Of a DNA stretch of 54,742 nucleotides, positions 20,470 through 51,158 are shown piece after piece. The translations under genes and the position numbers were made by a program. The notes under the pieces were generated by a model that made no database searches, had not been told where the DNA came from, and saw only the letters and a program-made list of their open reading frames with translations. The stretch comes from a virus: IMG/VR virus record IMGVR_UViG_3300037332_000228, positions 1-54,742 of that record. One strand, written 5' to 3'. Every line of letters starts with the position of its first letter. The stretch's first letter is position 1.

Positions 20470-20888
20470 AAACATTACACAACAAAGGATGGCTTCTTAA
20501 AATCTCTTCATGGGAAAATGATGGAGATCATAAAAACACTGTTGAATTGGCAGCGAACAGTTCTGAAAAGGCAAAGCAGATGTTTGAATTTGCAAGTCTT
20601 TTTAAAGATACTGAAAGATCTAATCGTATCGGGAACATATATGAACCAGATGATCGAGATATTCAAAATATCTTGCGAGTAGCAAATGCCTTTATTGTAA
20701 AATACCCCGGGTTCATCGAAACCCAAGACGGAGACGACGATGAACTGATTGTAGAATGTTTCATCGAAACAGCATATGACTACGGCCTTACTAGAGGCGA
20801 GCAATATACTAGACTGTGTGAAACAGTAAAAGTTCTATATTTTCCAGAAGATGTACTTTATGAAGATGTAACAAAAGAATATCGTTGA
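20466..20888 (+). CDS. Hypothetical 140-aa acidic protein
   Basis: Product MKTLHNKGWLLKISSWEND..., acidic, coupled by ATGA. The pattern WENDGDHKNT with a long helical middle recurs among phage proteins, as far as I can recall. Its end overlaps the nadV promoter. Confidence 0.6.
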   Translation: MKTLHNKGWLLKISSWENDGDHKNTVELAANSSEKAKQMFEFASLFKDTERSNRIGNIYEPDDRDIQNILRVANAFIVKYPGFIETQDGDDDELIVECFIETAYDYGLTRGEQYTRLCETVKVLYFPEDVLYEDVTKEYR

Positions 20889-20915
20889 CAAACAACATGA
20901 CATGTGTTATAAATA
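20885..20915 (+). promoter_or_regulatory. nadV promoter: sigma70-like with overlapping T4-late motif
   Basis: TTGACA (20885-20890), 17-bp spacer, TATAAA (20908-20913). The -10 extends to TATAAATA (20908-20915), an exact match to the T4 late promoter element, so nadV could be transcribed early and late. Confidence 0.65.
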
Positions 20916-20944
20916 ACAATATCATTAACTAGAGGAGTTCTATA

Positions 20945-21721
20945 ATGAAAAATATTCTAAGCCTGCTTACTTCCATCATGCGTACCGATGGATACAAAAC
21001 TTCACAATTCTTACAATACCCAGCTGATACCCAATACATCAGCTCATATATTGAATCGCGCGGCGGCGCTGACACCAGTGTATTCTTTGGTCTACAAGCA
21101 TTCATCAAAGACTACATGCAAACCCCCATTACTCAATCTGATATCAACTTTGCAGAAGCAGTTTTTACAAAGTATGGTACTCCCTTCAACCGAGCGGGGT
21201 GGGAGATCATCGTCAACGAGTTTGATGGATATCTGCCACTGGAGATTGAAGCGGTTCCAGAAGGTACTGTGATGGCAACCAGAAACATCCAAGTTCAAGT
21301 TGTAAATACTGATCCCAGAATGGGATGGTTGACATCATATGTTGAGACTGCTCTGCTACGTGGGGTATGGTATCCTTCAACTGTGGCAACCAAGTCACGT
21401 GATATGAAGGTGATGATTGCACAAGCACTGTTCAAGTCCAGTGACATTCCAGTTGATATTCTAATGGGGCCTGTGTTGAATTTCACTCTCAATGATTTTG
21501 GTGCTCGTGGGGCAAGTTCAACAGAAACAGCCGTTCTTGGTGGGATGAGTCACCTTGTAAATTTCTGGGGCAGTGACACAATTGAGGGCATGATTGGCGC
21601 ACATGTTTACTACTCCGCTGATGTTACAGACATGTCTGCGTCTGTTGTAGCAGGGTCAATCCCTGCAAGTGAACACTCAATTTCTAGTTCATGGGCGACC
21701 GCTGCTCCGACGCCGGAATGA
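20945..21721 (+). CDS. nadV: Nicotinamide phosphoribosyltransferase, N-terminal part of split NadV
   Basis: A 258-aa product. MRTDGYKTSQFLQYP, GLQAFIKDYM and LNDFGARGASS are NAMPT/NadV signatures; SIPASEHS contains the catalytic histidine (His244). The family continues for another 200-250 residues after this point, but here the frame ends with a tail of about eight unrelated residues (ATAAPTPE). The missing half is encoded at 23095, after an endonuclease gene. NadV joins nicotinamide and PRPP to give NMN. AGAGGAG lies before the ATG. The gene is probably functional as a two-piece enzyme, though a dead gene cannot be excluded. Confidence 0.9.
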   Translation: MKNILSLLTSIMRTDGYKTSQFLQYPADTQYISSYIESRGGADTSVFFGLQAFIKDYMQTPITQSDINFAEAVFTKYGTPFNRAGWEIIVNEFDGYLPLEIEAVPEGTVMATRNIQVQVVNTDPRMGWLTSYVETALLRGVWYPSTVATKSRDMKVMIAQALFKSSDIPVDILMGPVLNFTLNDFGARGASSTETAVLGGMSHLVNFWGSDTIEGMIGAHVYYSADVTDMSASVVAGSIPASEHSISSSWATAAPTPE

Positions 21722-21733
21722 CTTAAGAACATA

Positions 21734-21765
21734 AATACATGCATAAAAGGAATTATGCATGTATT
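21734..21765 (+). promoter_or_regulatory. Hairpin hiding the endonuclease start, with late-promoter-like motif
   Basis: Perfect 13-bp inverted repeat (21734-21746 / 21753-21765). The loop is AAGGAA, the ribosome site, and the 3' arm holds the ATG at 21759. CATAAATA at 21730-21737, one base from the T4 late element, would start transcripts inside the 5' arm and so free the ribosome site. Confidence 0.65.
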
Positions 21766-23093
21766 ACACAATCTACAAGATAACAAACATAATGAACAAT
21801 AAAATTTATATAGGAAGACACAAAACCATGGACTTAGATGATGGCTATATGGGTTCAGGTACTCGAATCTGCGCTGCCATTAAAAAATATGGGGTTGATA
21901 ACTTCTTAAAGGAAATAATATTACAATGTGATAATTATAATGATATGATACTGCGTGAGTCTGAGATGGTGAACTCCGAGTTTGTGAAGTGCGATAGCAA
22001 TTACAACGTCATACCAGGTGGGGACGGATTTAATACTACCGGAATGGTGAGTGCAATATTGGTAGAAACTGGAGAAAATGTTTTTATTAGATCTGAAGAC
22101 TATCAAAAAAACAAGAATAAATATACCACTGCATCTTCTGGATTTGTCACGGTTTGGTGTGATATCAATGAAAAATATCATAGAATTACCACTTCTGAAT
22201 TTGACGGTGATATTCACCGTGCTATAGCCAAGGGCAGAACCTCGGTATGGAATTCTGAAAAGAATAGATTCCACAAAATCCCATCTTCTGATTACGACAG
22301 ACATATACATAGAACCCCATCAGATGGTTTCGTACGGGCGAGACGCATAGGAGAACCCCAATTTAGAAGTGTACCATGTCATGAATATAAAGAAAATAAA
22401 ACTCAATTTGAAACACCGTCCTCGGGCAAACGATCAGTGAAACATAAAGTAACTGGAGAGACATCTTCTATTGGCGTTCACGAATTCGACCAGTTTATAC
22501 ATGAAAGTGTATTCGGCGGAATCGTGGCAATGAAAAACGGAGTTCGACAATATGTAACAGCTGACGAATATTACAATGATAACAGTATGAAAGTAACTGC
22601 GTCTGGAAATGTGACAGCATATGATACAATTGAGAATAGAATAAGGCATGTTCCTTCAGAAGAATATAGACGCAATAAGTCTAGATATCTAGCAAACGGC
22701 AGTGGTACGGTTACAGTAATTGACAAGAAATCAAAAGAGCAGCTCACAATTACGACTGAAGAATTTCATAAAAACAAAGATCTTTATAACACTCCTTCTA
22801 CTGGCAAGAGAACAGTATGGTTGATAACTGATAAAGTATTTAAAAATATACTTAAAGAAGATTTTGACAGAAAATATCACGCATATGCGTCTGATAAACA
22901 TCTGATATGCACTGATGCTAGCGGTGAAGTTATCTTTGATTATTTTGGATCTAAAAGAGATTTTTGTGATTTATACCCGGAGTCATTATATAATGCGGCT
23001 AAAAAAAGTACAAAAATGTGGAAACCATATACAAGAGACAAACGACTAGAAATGTTTAATGGATGCAACTTCGAAAACAGAAAATGGAGATAA
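21759..23093 (+). CDS. GIY-YIG homing endonuclease inserted in nadV
   Basis: A 444-aa product. Residues 1-90 are a GIY-YIG nuclease: YTIYKITN (3-10), IYIGRH (18-23) with the catalytic Arg, DDGYMGSGT, and Glu in LRESEMV. Residues about 110-400 hold eight or so degenerate repeats of 35-40 aa, each with a GxVxV...I...EF/EY core, presumably DNA-binding modules. It sits exactly between the two nadV pieces, in the same orientation. No group I intron core fits in the 40 bases before it, so it is a freestanding gene rather than an intron ORF. Its stop precedes the nadV 3' part ATG by one base. Confidence 0.88.
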   Translation: MYYTIYKITNIMNNKIYIGRHKTMDLDDGYMGSGTRICAAIKKYGVDNFLKEIILQCDNYNDMILRESEMVNSEFVKCDSNYNVIPGGDGFNTTGMVSAILVETGENVFIRSEDYQKNKNKYTTASSGFVTVWCDINEKYHRITTSEFDGDIHRAIAKGRTSVWNSEKNRFHKIPSSDYDRHIHRTPSDGFVRARRIGEPQFRSVPCHEYKENKTQFETPSSGKRSVKHKVTGETSSIGVHEFDQFIHESVFGGIVAMKNGVRQYVTADEYYNDNSMKVTASGNVTAYDTIENRIRHVPSEEYRRNKSRYLANGSGTVTVIDKKSKEQLTITTEEFHKNKDLYNTPSTGKRTVWLITDKVFKNILKEDFDRKYHAYASDKHLICTDASGEVIFDYFGSKRDFCDLYPESLYNAAKKSTKMWKPYTRDKRLEMFNGCNFENRKWR

Positions 23094-23094
23094 T

Positions 23095-23844
23095 ATGATT
23101 GAAGATAACCATAATGAAAAAGCGTATATTAAACATATGCTTACCCTATTAGGCCCGGGGAAAACAGTGGCCATTGTTGCAGATACATATGATGTGTATA
23201 ATTTTTGTAGATTAGTAGGGGAACTCAAGGTTCAAGTGATTGCATCCGGAGGCACTCTGGTTGTACGGCCAGACTCTGGTAATCCGGTTACTGTGCCAAT
23301 CGAAATCCTTGACATACTGTCAGAGCAGTTTGGCTATACAGTAAACAGCAAAGGGTTCAAGGTGTTAGCACAACGTGAAGATGGGTCCGCCATTGTGAAA
23401 GTCATCCAAGGTGATGGCCTTGATGTGGTCACCATGAAACAATTACTGGACAATGTGATTGAGGCTGGATACAGTGTGGAAAACATTGCGCTGGGCATGG
23501 GCGGCGGACTCTTGCAAAAAGTAGACCGTGACACTCTGAAATATGCCATGAAGGCTTCTGCCAGATGTGATTCAGATGGAGTGTGGCATGATGTATTCAA
23601 AGATCCTATTACTGATCCAGGTAAGACTTCCAAGAAAGGTCGGCTGGGACTGATCTACGAATGTGGAGTTGGTTCATGTGGTTACAGGACACTGCCCAAG
23701 AAATTTGCAGATGAAAAGAACAATCTGCTCCGTGAAGTATATCGCAATGGCAAATTGTTGATTGAAGATGACTTTGAAACGGTGCGAGTCCGCGGTGCAC
23801 TTGTTGAGTCCGAATATAATCCACAGATTTCTGAACGCTACTGA
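23095..23844 (+). CDS. nadV: Nicotinamide phosphoribosyltransferase, C-terminal part of split NadV
   Basis: A 249-aa product. VAIVADTYDVYN, VVRPDSGNP (Arg58 and Asp60, which bind PRPP/NMN phosphate in NAMPT), IQGDGLD and GMGGGLLQKVDRDT are NAMPT C-terminal motifs, and SEYNPQISERY ends the protein as expected. The ATG at 23095 has GGAGA 4 bases upstream and starts one base after the endonuclease stop, suggesting coupled translation; an in-frame ATG at 23059 inside the endonuclease gene is the alternative. The catalytic His is on the other polypeptide, so activity needs both pieces. Confidence 0.9.
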   Translation: MIEDNHNEKAYIKHMLTLLGPGKTVAIVADTYDVYNFCRLVGELKVQVIASGGTLVVRPDSGNPVTVPIEILDILSEQFGYTVNSKGFKVLAQREDGSAIVKVIQGDGLDVVTMKQLLDNVIEAGYSVENIALGMGGGLLQKVDRDTLKYAMKASARCDSDGVWHDVFKDPITDPGKTSKKGRLGLIYECGVGSCGYRTLPKKFADEKNNLLREVYRNGKLLIEDDFETVRVRGALVESEYNPQISERY

Positions 23845-23851
23845 ATCCAAA

Positions 23852-23881
23852 ATGGCCCAAATGGTTTTCTGTTTGGGCCAT
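23852..23881 (+). terminator. Terminator after nadV
   Basis: Perfect 10-bp stem (ATGGCCCAAA / TTTGGGCCAT) with a 10-base loop, 7 bases after the nadV stop. Confidence 0.65.
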
Positions 23882-23882
23882 C

Positions 23883-24122
23883 ATGTCGGATGACATCACT
23901 AACAGCAAAGAAAACGGTAATTCAATGATAGCTACATTCCAACTAAAATTTGAAACTAGAATCCAGAGGTTTCTCTGGAAACTGGGACCCAAGAATAGAA
24001 AATACATTCTAAAATTATTTAGGGCATGGACACTGGAAGATGATTTATATGAAATCCTAGCTGAAGAAATACAAACTGAAATCAACAAAGAAATTATGGA
24101 AGTTTTGATGCGTGATCAATGA
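23883..24122 (+). CDS. Hypothetical protein of doubtful start
   Basis: A 79-aa frame; the part from about residue 15 (MIATFQLKFETRIQRF) is helical and protein-like. No good ribosome site precedes either ATG (23883 or 23925), and the first falls on the terminator arm. It may be a decayed gene in the scarred region after nadV. Confidence 0.35.
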   Translation: MSDDITNSKENGNSMIATFQLKFETRIQRFLWKLGPKNRKYILKLFRAWTLEDDLYEILAEEIQTEINKEIMEVLMRDQ

Positions 24123-24344: not shown

Positions 24345-24377
24345 TAGTCCAAGTGGTCGTCTACTTGGACTATTTTT
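24345..24377 (+). terminator. Intrinsic terminator
   Basis: Perfect 10-bp stem (TAGTCCAAGT / ACTTGGACTA), 8-base loop and a T5 tail. It follows the duplicated nadV tail, so it may be that copy's original terminator. Confidence 0.8.
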
Positions 24378-25096: not shown

Positions 25097-26344
25097 TTAT
25101 GCATGTCCATAAAGTTCGTCGAACTCTACAGGTTTGCTAGTCGCTTCAATGAGGTTTGCCAAACGATTCCTTTGCAGGAACCATTCTGGTCTTATATCCT
25201 CTCCACGATTGTTGATGTCGGGTAATTCCTCCGACAATAGGCCATGAAAATTCTTCATGCCTTCTTTGTAAATGTTTTTGGCAGCATTTATGTCTCTGTC
25301 ATGCTCAGTGTGGCAGGATGGACATGTCCAATCTCTTGTTCCAAGATCCAGCGCATCTAGCTTGTGACCACAACATGAACAGGTCTTGCTTGAGGCAAAG
25401 AACCTGTTCACTTTGCAAACTTCTTTGCCGTACCAATCAGCTTTGTATGCCATCATTCCAACTAAAGTCGACCACGAAACGTCTGCGATTGCCTTGCTGA
25501 GTTTCCTGTTTTTGATCATGTTTTTGACTGCAAGATCTTCAACGAAAATTGAATCGTAGTTGGTAACAACATAGTTACTGATCTGGTGATAATACCAGTT
25601 TCTCTGTCTGGTTATTTTCTCGTGTATTTTGGCAACTTTTAGCCGAGCCTGGTTGTATCTGTTGCTGCCTTTAGTCTTTCGTGACAAATGCTGTTGCATC
25701 TTCTTCAATTTCGCTTGAGTTTTGCGAAAATATTTTGGATTAGTAAATTTAGTGCCGTCAGATAGGATAGCAAGGTGGTTAATACCAAGATCAATCCCGA
25801 TATCCTTGCCTGTTTTAGGTTTTTCTTGTATTTCCTCACATACGAGAATCGATACATAATATTCGTTGGTTTTAGTCTTGGATAAGGTGACGCTTCTTAA
25901 CTCTCCAGTAAAAGTTCTGTCATAGACCACTTTAATTGGCGTCATCTTTGGGATCTTAATTGTACCTGCTTCGAAGTCTACTGCTTTGTTGTATGCCAGT
26001 GCTTGGCCAGGAATTCTCATCGAGTCTCTTGATACTCCCTTTTTCTTGAAATTTGGTCTGCCAGATTTTATCTTGCGTTTCTTGTTGAAAAACTGCTTGG
26101 TGGTTTCATAGAAGTCCATTCTTTTCTGTTGAATAGAATAGGAAATGCATTCCTTGAGCCAATCGTGTTCTGATTTCACATGAGCTTCCGACATATTTTT
26201 AACATGATCATCCGTGCCATAGTTGTTAAAGTTTGCAACCAACTGGTTCCAGACAAATCTTGCTGCACCGAAATTCCGATCGAGAGTACGTCTTTGATCA
26301 AAGGTCGGATAGATCCTGTATTTGTAGGCTTTATAAATAGACAT
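25097..26344 (-). CDS. tnpB: TnpB-family RNA-guided nuclease (IS200/IS605 type)
   Basis: A 415-aa product. The N-terminus AYKYRIYPTFDQ is the usual TnpB opening. RuvC residues are intact: Asp185 in GIDLGINHL, Glu269 in FVEDL, Asp351 in EHDRDINAAKN. A zinc ribbon lies between the last two (Cys322, 325, 341, 344). No TnpA transposase gene is nearby, so it is a lone TnpB. TnpB proteins of this family cut DNA with an omega RNA taken from the element's 3' end. A short hairpin (AGTTCG/CGAACT, 25113-25125) lies in the last codons, where that RNA is normally encoded. It is the first minus-strand gene and sits in an intergenic gap. Confidence 0.92.
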   Translation of the reverse strand: MSIYKAYKYRIYPTFDQRRTLDRNFGAARFVWNQLVANFNNYGTDDHVKNMSEAHVKSEHDWLKECISYSIQQKRMDFYETTKQFFNKKRKIKSGRPNFKKKGVSRDSMRIPGQALAYNKAVDFEAGTIKIPKMTPIKVVYDRTFTGELRSVTLSKTKTNEYYVSILVCEEIQEKPKTGKDIGIDLGINHLAILSDGTKFTNPKYFRKTQAKLKKMQQHLSRKTKGSNRYNQARLKVAKIHEKITRQRNWYYHQISNYVVTNYDSIFVEDLAVKNMIKNRKLSKAIADVSWSTLVGMMAYKADWYGKEVCKVNRFFASSKTCSCCGHKLDALDLGTRDWTCPSCHTEHDRDINAAKNIYKEGMKNFHGLLSEELPDINNRGEDIRPEWFLQRNRLANLIEATSKPVEFDELYGHA

Positions 26345-50207: not shown

Positions 50208-51158
50208 CTACATTCTTAAAGGCTTTGTCTTCCCCAGCCGCCAACCATCAGTGAGATACTCATCTACTTTTTCTGGTTGTACTCTTTTATTTTTGCCATC
50301 TTTCGTGATGGTTATAATACCCTTGCAATTGGATCCAACAGTCCAACCATCAGTGAGATACTCATCTACTTTTTCTGGTTGTACTCTTTTATTTTTGCCA
50401 TCTTTCGTGATGGTTATAATACCCTTAAAGCATTCACTTCTAAGCTTCCTTAATTCTGGATTATTAATATATGATTGCTTAACTGATTCACTCGAAGACA
50501 GTGCCCGCTCTCTTTTTTCTTTGTCGGTCAACCCATCCCATGAATCTTTTCCTTTTTGTGATCTTTCTTCTCTTTGGGACTCGGTTATATTTTTCTCTTC
50601 TTCAATACGACGAAGACTGGTGTTTTTCGAATGAGATTGTAGTTTCGGAGATGTTTTCCATGATTCTTGTTTTTTCTGCTTCATGGCTTTTCTAAATTCG
50701 TTATCCCAGTTCTCGGATATAGTCTTTAGTCTCTTATCATTTATTTCTGGTTGTTTATTTTTAATTATTGACTTCCAGTATTCAGTTTGAGAGATGTTTG
50801 TTATTCCATCACCATATAAAAGCTCAGTTATAAATTTATTTTTGTCAGAATCAAAAATGAAATCGTTGTTATGCATATTATAAAAATCAATATTCTTCCT
50901 GGCATTCACTTTTTTTAGAAATCTTGTTTCATAGTCGACCGCGGCTCGACCATCTTCGAATATTTTAATTTTTCTAATCTTGAATGAGTCAATTCCGTTT
51001 TTCTTGATTATATTTTTGATAGTATTAGATGATGTATTATACCCATCTAATTTTAATAATTCCTCCGGATCGCAGTCCTTGATCCATCTTGCTCCGGCAT
51101 AATACATGCCGTTGCTGGTATCTTGTAAGATATAGAAATATGGGGCATAAATATACAT
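50208..51158 (-). CDS. GIY-YIG homing endonuclease splitting the nucleotidyltransferase
   Basis: A 316-aa product. PYFYILQDTSNGMYYAGARW is the GIY-YIG core and YETRFLKKVNARKNIDFYN holds the catalytic Glu. The middle is a long basic helix region and the C-terminus has two nearly identical 34-aa modules (KRVQPEKVDEYLTDGW). It is on the strand opposite to the gene it interrupts, and its stop lies only 2 bases from the upstream piece. Close relative of the endonuclease at 38.8-40.2 kb in its first 90 residues. AAAGGAACACAGCAT precedes the ATG. Confidence 0.88.
   Translation of the reverse strand: MYIYAPYFYILQDTSNGMYYAGARWIKDCDPEELLKLDGYNTSSNTIKNIIKKNGIDSFKIRKIKIFEDGRAAVDYETRFLKKVNARKNIDFYNMHNNDFIFDSDKNKFITELLYGDGITNISQTEYWKSIIKNKQPEINDKRLKTISENWDNEFRKAMKQKKQESWKTSPKLQSHSKNTSLRRIEEEKNITESQREERSQKGKDSWDGLTDKEKRERALSSSESVKQSYINNPELRKLRSECFKGIITITKDGKNKRVQPEKVDEYLTDGWTVGSNCKGIITITKDGKNKRVQPEKVDEYLTDGWRLGKTKPLRM
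50241..50426. repeat. Exact 84-base direct repeat in the endonuclease gene
   Basis: 50241-50324 and 50343-50426 are identical by eye, period 102 bases, encoding the two C-terminal DNA-binding-like modules; identity at the base level means a recent duplication. Confidence 0.9.

Follow-up and report, generated by a model that had tools for sequence, protein, structure and literature searches.

We report that, in the window analysed here, a free-standing SegB-type GIY-YIG homing endonuclease gene lies within nadV and would be governed by a switch of its own, in which a hairpin at the gene start is evaded by transcription from an overlapping late promoter; we assign this reading a probability of roughly 0.83. 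The window is the whole stretch of 54,742 bases that was analysed (IMG/VR virus record IMGVR_UViG_3300037332_000228, positions 1–54,742), and it is a fragment. The switch itself is already known, and what is new to us is its context: the endonuclease is free-standing, has no intron, and splits nadV between divergent flanks suggesting homing. A classic T4 regulatory trick is thereby extended to a new setting, a gene for NAD salvage in an uncultivated phage. Should the switch move together with the gene, it would help to account for the entry of DNA-cutting genes into early metabolic genes with no premature expression.

A homing endonuclease gene splits nadV

The window encodes the T4-type proteins rIIA and rIIB, topoisomerase subunits and a gp44-like clamp loader, and the nearest relative of its source phage is a 208-kb contig (L008, equivalent to G004; hereafter the relative phage). 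The endonuclease gene (21759–23093, plus strand) encodes 444 amino acids with a SegB-like nuclease domain, and its matches to PHROG 314 (E = 1.8e-28) and Pfam SegE_GIY-YIG (E = 1.7e-5, above the cut-off) place the product among homing endonucleases. The general GIY-YIG Pfam model PF01541 missed the gene in the search of its own genome. The first 102 residues, which span the GIY-YIG domain, are 47% identical to T4 SegB, itself free-standing, and no meaningful alignment of the two proteins was found beyond residue ~102, the C-terminal part being unrelated to that of the 221-residue SegB. The gene thus has the GIY-YIG homology of the SegB family, without a shared DNA-binding part or a location in a tRNA region. 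By eye, residues ~120–400 seem to comprise approximately eight diverged repeats of ~30 residues with the pattern SG.VTV...I...EF..NK..Y.TPS, which were not reported by a BLAST self-comparison of the protein and perhaps form a modular DNA-binding array. No close nucleotide relatives of the insertion were found among 50,697 phage records, and because the full-length endonuclease query gave no confirmed relative in viral contigs, relatives were sought via the nuclease domain.

Aligned to human NAMPT, the 5′ part of nadV (20945–21721, plus strand; 258 amino acids; PHROG 448, E = 1.9e-71; Pfam NAMPT_N, E = 8e-21) covers residues 12–254 and the 3′ part (23095–23844, plus strand; 249 amino acids; PHROG 448, E = 6.7e-62) covers residues 257–481. 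The two parts together tile the whole enzyme, each with its own start and stop codons, and GGAG at 23086–23089 (plus strand), within the end of the endonuclease gene, was read from the sequence as the Shine–Dalgarno site of the 3′ part. In the relative phage, nadV is uninterrupted and encodes 499 amino acids, and the 5′ part in the window is 94% identical to it; nadV is thus a gene in pieces, with both parts kept here and an intact counterpart in the relative. Outside the endonuclease reading frame, only 37 nt before it and 1 nt after it separate the two parts. A group I intron was rejected, since a search of positions 20900–24000 against Rfam detected neither an intron nor another known RNA at E up to 1 and these short spacers leave no room for one, and a split intein was rejected as the tails at the break are too short for intein halves.

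Away from the break, dS between the window and the relative phage is 0.22 in the 5′ part of nadV and 0.41 in the 3′ part, and synonymous sites are saturated in the 49 bases before the insertion (21673–21721, plus strand, the blastn match ending at 21672) and in the 126 bases after it (23095–23220, plus strand, the match resuming at 23221). The right flank has accumulated 22 amino-acid changes on the branch of the window versus 0 on that of the relative. Co-conversion fits these tracts better than selection for a new interface because selection raises dN, not dS. The divergent flanks are thus probably foreign DNA imported by co-conversion during homing, as judged from one genome pair. A search for the donor gave only weak matches of the flanks to other phage nadV genes (best E 0.05–0.2). 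Outside the junction, the dN/dS values of nadV are 0.11 and 0.15, and this constraint may predate the split. The two NadV parts probably assemble into one enzyme, and the split nadV becomes an added candidate on the short list of two-piece phage enzymes. Among the papers examined in a literature search, none reported a nadV split by an endonuclease.

Two further endonuclease-like reading frames with GIY-YIG-like N-termini lie on the minus strand at 38788–40215 and 50208–51158, opposite to their neighbours, and an inverted-repeat search for the same lock at these genes found no hairpin over a ribosome site. The window also carries a TnpB-like gene on the minus strand at 25097–26344 (OrfB_IS605, E = 1.7e-29; Cas12f1-like TNB domain, E = 6e-25), with a terminator-like hairpin at 24374–24343 downstream of it.

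The start of the endonuclease gene is enclosed in a perfect hairpin

The sequence-only reading had described a perfect 13-bp hairpin with AAGGAA in its loop and the ATG in its 3′ arm, and this description proved correct to the base. On the plus strand, the 5′ arm AATACATGCATAA (21734–21746) and the 3′ arm TTATGCATGTATT (21753–21765) are 100% complementary over 13 bp, the 6-nt loop AAGGAA (21747–21752) is the Shine–Dalgarno site of the endonuclease gene, and the ATG of the 444-residue reading frame (21759–21761) lies within the 3′ arm; a further ATG, at 21755, lies in another reading frame. Folding of the hairpin gave a minimum free energy of -15 kcal/mol, with z between -5.7 and -6.1, and none of 200 dinucleotide shuffles folded equally well. 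Six places in the window have perfect stems of at least 13 bp with loops of 3–12 nt and 30 dinucleotide shuffles yielded none, and the stem is therefore not attributable to chance. Strong hairpins as such are no rarity in the genome; what sets this one apart is how it is aligned with the ribosome site, the AUG and a late-promoter-like box.

The hairpin may lie in an early transcription unit. A putative nadV promoter, TTGACA-17-TATAAA, was read from the sequence at 20885–20915 (plus strand), and no plus-strand terminator was called at the hairpin, suggesting that nadV is transcribed early and that this transcription reads through into the endonuclease gene. The -10 element of the promoter overlaps a late-type box, TATAAATA, at 20908–20915, and the intact nadV of the relative phage is also preceded by TATAAATA. 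Because the -10 element is also a late box, nadV may be transcribed both early and late, one site serving as sigma-70 and late promoter; late nadV RNA, if made, would still carry the lock.

A hairpin placed directly after the 5′ part of nadV might instead act as a terminator or an RNase barrier for the nadV 5′ RNA, its overlap with the start codon being incidental, and the terminator scan did flag a terminator-like site at this position, on the minus strand. However, no T run follows the hairpin on the plus strand, the scan called no terminator on that strand, and there is no minus-strand gene here that needs one. Moreover, hairpins at unrelated locations, namely the tRNA clusters of Vibrio phages and T4 segB, show the same placement relative to the box and the AUG. 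We therefore consider termination or RNase protection very unlikely, and the least probable of the alternatives to a translational lock.

A late-promoter-like box overlaps the hairpin and would release the lock

The late-promoter-like sequence that had been noted as ending just inside the 5′ arm was confirmed as CATAAATA at 21730–21737 (plus strand), which extends 4 nt into the arm. This 8-mer does not match the T4 consensus at position -13 and is no commoner in the window than chance predicts (2 found versus 3.9 expected), so that the box needs comparative evidence. Upstream of 196 genes of the relative phage, the commonest 8-mer was TATAAATA and the commonest 7-mer ATAAATA, and TATAAATA/NATAAATA was the most enriched motif. 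CATAAATA is acceptable as a late box because the first base varies and T4 segB has the same variant. Late transcription factors were likewise recognized in the relative phage, namely a gp55-like protein at E = 4.5e-20 and a clamp resembling gp45 at E = 3e-27, so that the components of T4-type late transcription, together with TATAAATA promoters, are seen in the closest relative, the window being a fragment.

It might be supposed that the box is not a late promoter here and that the hairpin simply holds endonuclease output at a constitutively low level or responds to some other factor that opens it, given that the box is a variant and that searches of the 54.7-kb fragment turned up neither gp55 nor gp45. 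The closest relative, however, has both the late factors and the motif, the same variant box precedes T4 segB, and NATAAATA occurs in 45 of 68 distinct related leaders versus 2.7 expected. This explanation is thus very unlikely, and a late promoter overlapping the hairpin accounts better for the box.

In T4, the late box starts at -13 (PMC2988020), and by this rule late transcription is predicted to start at 21743 (plus strand). The predicted promoter is placed such that an RNA begun there would be without 9 of the 13 bases of the 5′ arm. The cost of opening the start region was computed as the free energy of releasing the ribosome site and the AUG (bases -14 to +3) from pairing. It was 15.3 kcal/mol on read-through RNA, a value stable across leader lengths of 40–300 nt, versus 0.85 kcal/mol on RNA from 21743, which has no predicted structure; in these computations, the lock was released by any start at or after 21742. 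The sequestering of the ribosome site and AUG on read-through RNA, and the openness of the late RNA that had been expected along with it, were thus borne out by folding. The T4 leaders used as positive controls behaved alike, the opening cost falling from 16.3 to 5.7 kcal/mol for segB, from 15.4 to 3.8 for e and from 13.1 to 0.4 for I-TevII, and the leaders of T4 mobB, mobC and mobD, which are without a late box, had opening costs of only 0.9–5.3 kcal/mol. Every step that could be tested in the sequence turned out as predicted, and the interpretation as a lock combined with a late promoter is supported computationally.

The lock is common among related endonuclease genes

The search for the hairpin in related endonuclease genes, which had been suggested as a check, was positive for T4 segB, for the Vibrio phages phiKT1024 and Va1 and for about 70% of 57 box-bearing leaders. 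In phiKT1024, its near-twin phiTY18 and Va1, TATAAATA lies at the 5′ edge of the hairpin and the start codon lies within or directly beside the 3′ arm; phiKT1024 has two copies, one of which is energetically weak. For a broader survey, 160 metagenomic viral loci and the relatives in phage records were reduced to 113 leaders by removing those more than 75% identical. The box NATAAATA was present at -51 to -19 in 57 of the 113, and a Shine–Dalgarno-like site in 48 of these 57. The median opening cost of the 57 leaders fell from 10.9 to 3.2 kcal/mol upon late initiation, with a median gain of 8.1 kcal/mol; the gain exceeded 4 kcal/mol in 72%, and was 4 kcal/mol or less in the remaining ~28%, including one phiKT1024 copy. 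Compared with these, 24 ordinary late genes of the relative phage had a median gain of 1.0 kcal/mol, with 25% above 4 kcal/mol (Mann–Whitney p = 3.7e-7, an optimistic value as the leaders are related by descent). When upstream parts were swapped among relatives, the lock became weaker by a median of 4.4 kcal/mol (Wilcoxon p = 1.7e-9, likewise optimistic owing to kinship), and for the leader in the window none of 40 swaps equalled the true upstream part. Because swapped upstream DNA weakens the lock, it is specific complementarity, not base composition, that makes it. As a controlled computation, the survey shows that the predicted hairpin lock is common among the relatives of this endonuclease and not a curiosity of a few T4 genes.

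These comparisons also bear on the possibility that the palindromic DNA is an operator, through which the endonuclease or another protein represses its own transcription at the late promoter in the manner of I-TevI, the RNA hairpin being secondary. I-TevI binds an operator overlapping its late promoter (PMC2988022), and the arms of the hairpin contain the self-complementary ATGCAT. However, the relatives keep the pairing over the ribosome site and AUG with differing arm sequences, which points to RNA pairing rather than to a fixed protein-binding site, and the reference operator of I-TevI resembles a homing site and is not a perfect palindrome. An operator as the primary role is thus unlikely, though it and an RNA lock are not mutually exclusive.

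Proposed scenario and comparison with known switches

Considering these results, we propose the following scenario. A SegB-type GIY-YIG homing endonuclease gene would have inserted into nadV without an intron or intein, each nadV part retaining a separate start, stop and ribosome site and the two probably forming a joint enzyme. On read-through RNA from nadV, the computed 13-bp hairpin at the start would block ribosomes, so that little or no endonuclease would be made during early nadV expression. Once the gp55/gp45 machinery is active, RNA polymerase would start from CATAAATA, which overlaps the 5′ side of the hairpin, and by T4 rules the late RNA from ~21743, without 9 of the 13 arm bases, would not fold and would be translated. 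Endonuclease synthesis would thus be deferred to the late phase, in which homing can draw on replicated DNA and recombination.

Hairpin switches of this kind have been reported for I-TevI, I-TevII, I-TevIII, T4 segB and Aeh1 mobE (PMC2988022; PMC3014915). For I-TevI, I-TevII and I-TevIII, read-through RNA folds over the ribosome site, and the RNA made from a late or middle promoter a short way upstream is unfolded; the lock of I-TevI also protects the splicing of its intron (PMC2988022; PMC3014915). The likeness to I-TevI drawn in the sequence-only reading therefore holds for the logic of the switch; the closest match, however, is T4 segB, and the three I-Tev genes lie in group I introns, unlike the endonuclease gene in the window, which has no intron and does not belong to the intron-encoded I-TevI type. 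The segB leader resembles that in the window in having the variant box CATAAATA at -30 (-29 in the window) and a stable hairpin whose 3′ arm contains the AUG, and in showing a similar kind of fall in computed opening cost on late RNA. It differs in that its box lies wholly within the 5′ arm and that segB sits between tRNA genes, not in nadV.

Aeh1 mobE is a free-standing gene with a hairpin over its ribosome site that splits nrdA into two reading frames, and the split enzyme is active (PMC2988022). It shares with the window the splitting of a metabolic gene by a free-standing endonuclease gene with a hairpin at its start, though it encodes an HNH and not a GIY-YIG enzyme, interrupts nrdA and not nadV, and has a hairpin tested experimentally, that of the window being computed. 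The lysozyme gene e of T4 follows the same lock logic, a hairpin on the long early RNA blocking the start and late promoters in the 5′ strand removing the hairpin (PMC3014915), but e is not a mobile element.

A putative leaderless class of endonuclease genes

In 22 of the 113 leaders, the box lies exactly at -13 or -12 from the A of the AUG, and in one more it lies at -15; none of these 23 leaders (box at -15 to -12) has a Shine–Dalgarno-like site. The start regions assigned to this class before GIY-YIG genes are L067, L071, L077, L082, L089, L092, L097, L116, L121, L127, L131, L137, L162, L164, L180, L181, L189, L199, L202, L203, L209 and L210. No box at -13 or -12 was found among the genes of the relative phage. 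With the box at these positions, RNA would by the T4 rule start at the AUG, giving a leaderless late mRNA. The box is predicted to replace the Shine–Dalgarno site in this arrangement, such that read-through RNA would be without a ribosome site and only the late RNA would be translatable. An exact pattern search of viral contigs returned 11 stretches (L222–L232), all before GIY-YIG-like genes, which the pattern favours, and some of them overlap the earlier leader set. The box arrangement was also seen at one nucleotidyltransferase-like gene and one HNH-like gene.

It thus appears, with somewhat better than even odds, that SegB-like endonucleases of T4-type phages tie translation to the late promoter in two ways, by a hairpin lock or by leaderless late RNA. 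The leaderless arrangement, if true, would be a second and simpler solution to the same problem, and one that is directly testable. No report of leaderless late messages for homing endonucleases was found in a literature search from whose reach subscription journals mostly fell outside, and this class is a more novel lead than the hairpin lock.

In four other leaders without NATAAATA (L099, L107, L117 and L120), a TATTTATA-like sequence is present ~11 bases before the AUG, and it is possibly another phage-specific start arrangement.
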